Part shown: piece after piece, positions 40,859 through 41,990 of the stretch
Layout: each line of letters opens with the position of its first letter
Position numbering within the stretch: the first letter of the stretch is position 1
Assembly: GCF_016025255.1 (NCBI RefSeq)
Contig: NZ_CP065592.1
Location: 1,035,122 to 1,099,121 of the forward strand
Origin: Sphingosinicella flava
Lineage (GTDB): Bacteria > Pseudomonadota > Alphaproteobacteria > Sphingomonadales > Sphingomonadaceae
Length of the DNA: 64,000 nt
Reading direction: 5' to 3'
Position numbers and translations under genes: made by a program
Notes under the pieces: generated by a model
What the model was told of the DNA's origin: nothing
What the model saw: the letters and a program-made list of their open reading frames with translations, nothing else
Database searches by the model: none

Positions 40859-41731
40859 ATGGCCGACCGCCCCGCCGATGGCGATTCACGCCCCTTCCGC
40901 CGGGTTGGACCGGAAGCCCTCGCCTCGCCCGTCATCCTGTCCGTTCCTCATGCCGGACGCCGGTATAGCGACGCGCTGATCGCCGCCGCGCGCATTCCGC
41001 TGCACGCCTTGCAGTCGCTGGAGGACCGGCTGGTCGATCGCCTCGTCTGGCGCGCGGTCGCGGCCGGCGCGACGGCGCTGATCGCCGAGGTTCCGCGCGC
41101 CGAGATCGACCTCAACCGTCATGAGCGGGAGATGGACCCGCTGTCGGTCGCCTCGCCGCTGCCGCATTCGGCTTTCATCCAATCGGCACGGACGAAAAGC
41201 GGGCTCGGCCTCGTTCCTTCCCGCCATCCGACGGCGGGCGCGATTTGGCGCCACCGCTTGAGCGTGACGGAATTGGAGCAGCGAATCGCCAGCATTCACC
41301 GCCCCTTCCATGCGGCGCTCGCCGGTCTGCTGGAAGAAGCGCGGGGCATTTTCGGAGTCGCCATCCTGCTCGATTGCCATTCGATGCCGCCCCGTCATGG
41401 ACGCGAAAGGCCGGACATCGTGTTCGGCGACCGGCATGGGACGAGTATGGGTCTCCAATATCGCGACACGGCCCTGTCGGTCGCGGCGCGGACCGGGTTC
41501 CGCGTTGCACTCAATACCCCTTATGCGGGCGGGCACATCACCGTGGCCCATGGCCGCCCAGGGGACGATATCCATGCCTTGCAGATCGAAATCGACCGTT
41601 CGCTCTATCTTGACGCCGCCCTCAAGGAACCGGGCCCGGGTTTCGACCGGGTGACCCGTCTCATCGCCGCTCTCGCTGACGCCTTGGCGGAAGCCGCCAT
41701 CGGCGACAGCCCCGCACTGGCCGCGGAATAA
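40859..41731 (+). CDS. N-formylglutamate amidohydrolase family protein
   Basis: A 290-residue metal-dependent amidohydrolase. VILSVPHAGRRYSDAL (about 25-40) with the first metal-binding His, AEVPRAEIDLNRHEREMDP (about 82-100, the FGase motif with Asp-Asn/Asp-Arg) and ILLDCHSMPPRH with Asp and His (about 175-186), plus NTPYAGGHIT, all match the FGase family. HutG-type members release formate from N-formylglutamate in histidine degradation, but no other hut genes are nearby, so the role is not fixed. No signal peptide. Confidence 0.87.
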   Translation: MADRPADGDSRPFRRVGPEALASPVILSVPHAGRRYSDALIAAARIPLHALQSLEDRLVDRLVWRAVAAGATALIAEVPRAEIDLNRHEREMDPLSVASPLPHSAFIQSARTKSGLGLVPSRHPTAGAIWRHRLSVTELEQRIASIHRPFHAALAGLLEEARGIFGVAILLDCHSMPPRHGRERPDIVFGDRHGTSMGLQYRDTALSVAARTGFRVALNTPYAGGHITVAHGRPGDDIHALQIEIDRSLYLDAALKEPGPGFDRVTRLIAALADALAEAAIGDSPALAAE

Positions 41732-41884
41732 AAAAGACCACCCCGTGCGTTGCACGGAGTGGCCAAGGTTCAGGGAGGAACGCCCTCAAAGGGACGTAAT
41801 ACAAAGCGGTAAGGGGGAAACCGCGTTGTATCTCTTACGATTTAGGGAGGGTGCCCTGGCTTTCAAGCACCCGATCAACTTCTT
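41729..41884 (-). ncRNA. Candidate trans-acting small RNA with C/U-rich loops
   Basis: The 259-bp gap between two genes holds a self-contained minus-strand unit. Read 5' to 3': hairpin GGGTGC/GCACCC (41872-41849) followed by unpaired CCCTCCCT; a 10-bp stem with one mismatch, TACAACGCGGT/ACCGCTTTGTA (41830-41800), with loop TTCCCCCTT; a small hairpin GTTC-CTCCCT-GAAC (41781-41768); and a terminator stem with T-run (41762-41730). Three exposed C/U-rich stretches are complementary to Shine-Dalgarno sequences, as in the CCUCC-motif small RNAs of alphaproteobacteria. No open frame with coding character exists. The 5' end is estimated; a weak -10-like TATTTA lies at 41896-41891. Confidence 0.6.
41730..41762 (-). 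terminator. Rho-independent terminator of the candidate small RNA
   Basis: On the minus strand CCACTCCGTGC (41762-41752) and GCACGGGGTGG (41748-41738) form an 11-bp stem with one wobble or mismatch around a three-base loop, followed by TC and a run of six T (41735-41730). The plus strand has no T-run after the stem, so the direction is minus only. Confidence 0.88.
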
Positions 41885-41916
41885 GTAAAATAAATAGATT
41901 CTTTGTCGCGGCCATG

Positions 41917-41946
41917 AAAAAACGGCCGGGACGCTGTCCCGGCCGT
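41917..41946 (-). terminator. Rho-independent terminator of sapC
   Basis: ACGGCCGGGAC and its perfect complement GTCCCGGCCGT (41922-41946) surround a three-base loop; on the minus strand the stem is followed by six T (41922-41917). It lies 45 bp after the sapC stop and isolates sapC from the small RNA unit downstream. Confidence 0.93.
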
Positions 41947-41990
41947 CTATCATTGACACGTCGGCGCGGCAAAGCGTGCCGCTTTTCCGG

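Follow-up and report, generated by a model that had tools for sequence, protein, structure and literature searches.

A probable sphingomonad branch of the alpha-r8 small RNAs with an added C-rich 5' hairpin, encoded between sapC and an N-formylglutamate amidohydrolase gene

Background

Does the 259-bp gap between a sapC gene and an N-formylglutamate amidohydrolase (FGase) gene of Sphingosinicella flava hold a small RNA (sRNA) gene, and if so, how is the RNA built and to which family does it belong? The gap lies in a 64,000-nt stretch of contig NZ_CP065592.1 (assembly GCF_016025255.1, positions 1,035,122 to 1,099,121), referred to here as the window, and the region in question is the minus strand of the gap. 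An earlier reading of the sequence alone (the original prediction) had placed there, at 41729-41890, an sRNA with three C/U-rich anti-Shine-Dalgarno stretches, three hairpins and a six-T terminator, arising by independent transcription or by 3'-end processing. It left the family open, and proposed as checks a covariance search across sphingomonad genomes, a look for compensatory changes in the stem 41800-41830 and a comparison of stems and C-rich loops in relatives with the same gene order. Our analysis makes it highly probable that the gap carries a real, conserved gene for a trans-acting sRNA, belonging to a sphingomonad branch of the alpha-r8 lineage, with its own promoter and with C-rich seeds that would block mRNA translation.

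Structure and conservation of the RNA

The predicted gene occupies 41730..41833 of the minus strand (~104 nt), its 5' end placed by the promoter and its 3' end by the terminator. Folding and covariation define a first hairpin, SL1 (41798..41832, 12 bp with one internal mismatch), the loop of which, UUCCCCCUU (aSD1, 41811..41819; C-rich stretch TTTCCCCCTT at 41820-41811), is the presumed first seed. SL1 ends at 41798 and is directly abutted in the fold by SL2, a short 6-bp hairpin (41780..41797) standing where alpha-r8 RNAs have their "weak hairpin". Between SL2 and the terminator lies the single-stranded stretch UUCCUCCCUGAACC, with the presumed main seed UUCCUCCCU (aSD2, 41772..41780; C-rich stretch TTCCTCCCT at 41780-41772, including CTCCCT at 41777-41772) in a conserved core, UCCUCCCUGAACCUUGGCC (41779-41761). 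The Rho-independent terminator (41730..41764) consists of a 13-bp stem (41764-41736) followed by six U (41735-41730). The 162-nt stretch of the original prediction folds to -59.5 kcal/mol (z -3.9), a value equalled by 1 of 200 shuffles, and its three C-rich stretches, three hairpins and six-T terminator are all present as described.

A blastn search with the 201-bp region returned matches in 108 of the 149 sampled genomes of the family (Sphingomonadaceae), mainly through UCCUCCCUGAACCUUGGCC and the terminator. Among the 30 loci of the best matches, own locus included, sapC lies upstream on the same strand in all 30, FGase was found in 27 and is convergent in each of these, and a response regulator gene follows beyond FGase in 26, within the ~1.5 kb examined. 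R1, a covariance model trained on 13 of the 30 loci, scores 81.1 bits at the own locus and matches 132/149 family genomes at E 0.01 (E-values are rough), with a single match in 128. At E 0.001, R1 matches 158/196 genomes of the order, own family included, and the search of the class returned 67/385 genomes, 4 of them from the own family. Elsewhere in the order, among the matches listed, scores are lower (54.7 bits at best) and many matches span only ~75 bases, which indicates that SL1 is shortened or absent in those families. A full R1 match was found at 60 of 80 named sapC loci, and the plasmid records searched gave no match. Ten of 40 matches in the R1 search were antisense to the terminator alone and were dropped from the alignment by a stricter cut.

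The stems were followed in two ways. When each of the 30 loci was folded separately, a hairpin of 10-17 pairs enclosed the C-run in all of them, and compared with shuffled arms 23/30 reached z <= -2.9, the weakest being at z -1.4. An alignment of 47 sequences was then assembled from these 30 loci and 17 of the 30 R1 family loci (the remaining 13 came from genomes already included). In this alignment, which was fitted to R1 and leans towards the model (13 of its rows also built R1), 94.3% of cells are paired and 27 of the 35 pairs have changed on both sides (SL1 13/13, SL2 8/9, terminator 6/13), the terminator being paired in 99.5% of cells. The changes on both sides looked for in the stem 41800-41830 are seen at every SL1 pair of the model. 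None of 500 shuffles was as high on any measure, and structures slid along the alignment gave at most 49.4% paired cells.

As for the C-rich motifs, the aSD2 part UCCUCCCU is kept in 45/47 homologues, UCCUCCCUGAACC in 44/47 and the complete 19-nt core UCCUCCCUGAACCUUGGCC in 39/47, counts that are to be read with the fact that the loci were partly found through that same core. The first 40 nt hold a C-run of at least 3 in all 47 homologues, at least 4 in 40 and at least 5 in 32, and 14 homologues have CCCUCAU, the other 33 a C-run with UU after it. The RNA probably carries two anti-Shine-Dalgarno seeds: the SL1 loop would supply UUCCCCCUU, and the stretch ahead of the terminator UUCCUCCCU.

Promoter and start of the RNA

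Immediately upstream of SL1, a promoter-like pair conserved in the homologues consists of TTGAAA (-35 element, 41866-41861, minus strand) and TAAATC (-10 element, 41844-41839, minus strand) with a spacer of 16; it is also present in the relative of the same genus (L040). A TTGAAA/TATCTT-like pair (spacer 15-18, <=3 mismatches, with the consensus derived from the same sequences as were counted) directly precedes SL1 in 41/47 homologues, as against 1.2% of mononucleotide-shuffled upstream regions; the six others comprise three with no candidate and three with poorer candidates only. The distance between sRNA and sapC ranges over 70-810 nt (from the end of the aligned part), yet this pair and the structure stay conserved, from which we infer that the sRNA is transcribed from its own promoter.

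The first of the three predicted hairpins (41872-41849) spans the -35 element, and its stem is not conserved; among the 28 loci (of 30) with a promoter match, the hairpin around the -35 element has energies between -0.4 and -20.9 kcal/mol, strong ones existing, for example, in L046 and L067. The third C-rich motif, CCCTCCCT (41851-41844), falls in the promoter spacer, its final base being the first base of the -10 element. Because both overlap the promoter, the RNA would start near 41833 rather than at 41890, and the first hairpin and CCCTCCCT are probably absent from it. The candidate three-seed RNA was rejected on these grounds, namely a third motif within the promoter and a -35 hairpin that shares no common stem, and the anti-Shine-Dalgarno role proposed for all three stretches is retained, as predicted pairing, for two.

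Relationship to the alpha-r8 family

The 3' half of the RNA matches the Rfam model suhB/MmgR (RF00519) with 33.6 bits (E 3.7e-5, 601 bases searched), and when 20 of 29 relatives were scanned, 10 matched at E 0.1, the best with 38.8 bits and none over 41. Most species have a single alpha-r8 copy next to FGase (Vogt et al. 2025, PMC12559287), and the alpha-r8 core UUUCCUCCCU sits behind a weak hairpin (PMC12559287). Here, the 10-mer GUUCCUCCCU follows SL2, and most of it is predicted to be unpaired, whereas the first two bases close SL2; the RNA ends in the Rho-independent terminator described above, and FGase (PF05013, 40859-41731) adjoins it, as it does in 27/30 loci. Outside the family, 16 loci were retrieved for the best R1 matches (one per genome); all are above-cut-off suhB genes, and 10 of them have FGase within ~0.8 kb, convergent in all 10. 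Based on the Rfam match, the synteny and these outside matches, with FGase linkage and core as alpha-r8 hallmarks, the best reading is an alpha-r8 RNA of a sphingomonad branch that has an additional seed hairpin at its 5' end. On the family, which the original prediction left open, the answer would be that the RNA is divergently related to the known alpha-r8 (suhB/MmgR/SisA) RNAs.

A second, suhB-type sRNA that exceeds the Rfam cut-off (53.5 bits) was observed elsewhere in the own genome (L002, C1:2001097-2001173). None of the four neighbour genes was found within ~1.5 kb of L002, of L004 or of the 30 Rfam-found family loci (L010-L039). Upstream of suhB in five outside-family loci (L122, L111, L112, L114, and L117), palindromes like TGTGCACCGCA and TTGCACTGCA were seen by eye, which resemble the PhaR site of Sinorhizobium meliloti mmgR (site quoted in PMC12542648).

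Genomic setting

The source genome of the window comprises 2.42 Mb in one contig, and the closest named relative by SapC is Allosphingosinicella vermicomposti (84% identity). The upstream neighbour of the sRNA, sapC (PF07277, 41991-42794, minus strand), is on the same strand and ends in a terminator of its own (41917..41948, minus strand; a T run reaching 41917 follows the stem 41948-41920), which was recovered by folding as the original prediction had claimed and separates sapC from the sRNA. The convergent neighbour is FGase (plus strand), the stop codon of which is overlapped by the U tract of the sRNA (both within 41729-41735); in several relatives an A-run complementary to the U tract directly follows the likely FGase stop (by eye). 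At curated Rfam cut-offs, a tRNA is the sole match within the window.

Proposed mechanism and candidate targets

For the window sRNA the analysis establishes a conserved gene, a conserved promoter-like pair, a covarying structure, synteny, kinship with RF00519 and the presence of an hfq gene; its expression, 5' end, pairing, repression, binding of Hfq and targets are predictions. A sigma70-type promoter would give a ~104-nt RNA ending at the strong terminator, in which the single-stranded UUCCUCCCU (aSD2) could pair with target mRNAs at their G-rich ribosome-binding regions, while aSD1, the C-rich loop on the 5' hairpin added in the sphingomonad lineage, might pair with the same kind of site. 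Hfq would probably aid the pairing, and translation would mostly be blocked. This mechanism is proposed as probable by analogy. One model is SisA, the Caulobacter alpha-r8 RNA that represses mRNAs with pairing predicted via the core seed (PMC12559287); the other is the AbcR RNAs, which have two seeds (PMC8844928, PMC5461406). The Hfq encoded in the own genome (G000:C1:688529-688966, L123) was seen to have two Hfq domains in tandem within one 186-aa open frame.

The aSD2 pattern was found before an ATG at 11 places (2 for the backward control), with an outer membrane efflux protein (PF02321, 12-pair duplex) and an NAD-dependent epimerase among the leads and 4 of the 11 open frames shorter than 20 aa. 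For aSD1 the places numbered 29 (2 for the backward control), 20 of which were read; 5 of these 20 sit in a dispersed repeat, CCTCCCCCATCAAGGGGGAGG, several of the reading frames are very short, and some other places belong to what we take to be, judging by sequence alone, FliD, cytochrome c1, a substrate-binding protein and a TonB-dependent receptor. All of these seed matches serve as leads only, and no enrichment is claimed. The repeat CCTCCCCCATCAAGGGGGAGG is palindromic (own genome L215, L222, L226, L227, and L228), has arms resembling the SL1 seed and its complement, and was noticed since the search pattern demanded a following ATG.

We tentatively suggest that in sphingomonads an ancestral alpha-r8 RNA with a single seed became a two-headed regulator. 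Its 5' hairpin would be a separate targeting head with a freely rewritten stem and a loop of C-run-UU or CCCUCAU, and would add another regulon, perhaps with many envelope and transport proteins, that the tandem double Hfq serves.

Weighing of the alternatives

Several results weigh against the reading of a two-seed alpha-r8 sRNA. The window RNA misses the RF00519 gathering score of 41 bits and is therefore not filed as a member; its 10-mer GUUCCUCCCU differs from UUUCCUCCCU at the first base (9/10 bases are the same), and the exact 10-mer occurs in only 9/47 homologues. In the 16 outside-family loci, sapC is present in none and FGase in just 10. No R1 match was found at E 0.01 in 17/149 family genomes, nor at 20 of the 80 named sapC loci, including Sphingopyxis granuli and Zymomonas mobilis, some of these being on short contigs. 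RNAalifold on a plain MAFFT alignment recovers SL2 and the terminator (10/20 pairs with two-sided changes) and fails to recover SL1; in the plain alignment behind R1, 7-10 of 13 rows can form the SL1 pairs, which were taken over from a single folded row; and the alignment used for pair counting was itself fitted to R1. We take the RNAalifold failure to mean that MAFFT misaligns the fast-changing SL1 stem, which is why per-sequence folding and the model-fitted alignment were used instead. The seed-match counts are confounded by ordinary Shine-Dalgarno sequences and by the dispersed palindromic repeat. Finally, a CCCC-loop hairpin at least as stable, on either strand, arises in 28/300 dinucleotide shuffles of the gap, so the stem 41800-41830 cannot be called "too good to be chance", as it had been; SL1 taken alone is indecisive and the case rests on the relatives. 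This weak single-sequence test is also what would speak for there being no RNA at all, merely the terminator of a convergent gene pair with chance hairpins around it, an account that we regard as exceedingly improbable in view of the family-wide covariation and synteny, the former being strongly contrary to it unless the alignments mislead.

Whether the RNA has one seed or two is less one-sided. It is quite possible, if on the doubtful side, that aSD2 is the sole seed of an ordinary alpha-r8 sRNA and that SL1, its loop being C-rich for other reasons, protects the 5' end from RNases: conservation is higher in aSD2 and its flank than in the SL1 loop, the upstream hairpin often present in relatives outside the family lacks a C-rich loop, and among the 10 FGase-linked outside-family loci such a loop was seen by eye in only 4, all of one family. 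On the other hand, the C-run stays in the 5' hairpin region of 47/47 homologues despite a changing stem, which is what selection on the loop would produce, and mutation with compensation showed the analogous AbcR loop motif to be a seed (PMC8844928). A 3' untranslated region product of sapC, released by processing, would fit the shared strand of the two genes in 30/30 loci but is very unlikely considering the strong sapC terminator, the promoter-like pair in 41/47 homologues and the variable distance to sapC; from the original prediction, the minus-strand sRNA and its own, presumed transcription are thus kept and the processing route is disfavoured. That the RNA is chiefly a sponge for other sRNAs, or itself mainly held by one, rather than an mRNA repressor, has a precedent in the CrfA sponge, which binds SisA through this core with the aid of Hfq (PMC12559287); we consider it unlikely, as C-rich seeds suit the ribosome-binding sites of mRNAs and SisA itself represses mRNAs (PMC12559287).

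Novelty and comparison with known small RNAs

The alpha-r8 family is known, and the window gene is ordinary in kind, with an unusual added seed hairpin. No description of the two-seed sphingomonad form or of its locus was found in the literature searched, which misses most subscription journals. The sphingomonad copy may be listed in Lagares et al. 2016 (alpha-r8 distribution) or Garcia-Romero et al. 2018 (SuhB). The gene is present at a conserved place in most sampled family genomes and would be missed at the Rfam cut-off while a different copy passes, and the locus makes it possible to test directly how a second targeting head comes to be added to an old sRNA core.

Within the literature searched, SuhB of Sphingopyxis granuli TFA (61 nt), which has a negative effect on thnR translation together with Hfq (PMC6563040), was the sole sphingomonad sRNA of the suhB kind found with a studied function. 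The window RNA is likewise a suhB-kind sphingomonad sRNA, but judging by length and score the Sphingopyxis SuhB probably corresponds to the other, above-cut-off copy (here L002). With one C-rich seed in its first hairpin loop and another in a single-stranded linker, the window RNA recalls AbcR1/AbcR2 (alpha-r15, RF02345). In AbcR, however, the second seed lies between SL1 and SL2, whereas no seed is found there in the window sRNA, where the two hairpins abut and the seed stands before the terminator; membership in this family was rejected, as a search of the entire own genome with RF02345 gave nothing at E 10. The Caulobacter GsrN also has a 5' loop with a C run, which pairs with a G-rich mRNA leader (PMC5869019), but it is characterised by a general stress sigma factor promoter and a link to the general stress locus, while the promoter-like pair conserved here is TTGAAA/TATCTT-like. 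The closest likeness is to the alpha-r8 RNAs (MmgR in Sinorhizobium, SisA-D in Caulobacter; RF00519), with which the window sRNA shares the Rho-independent terminator and the place beside the FGase gene and which it resembles, with one base of the 10-mer different, in a mostly single-stranded core of the UUUCCUCCCU type behind a short hairpin; it differs from them by the extra covarying 5' hairpin with its C-rich loop and by a length of ~104 nt as compared with the 77 nt of MmgR.
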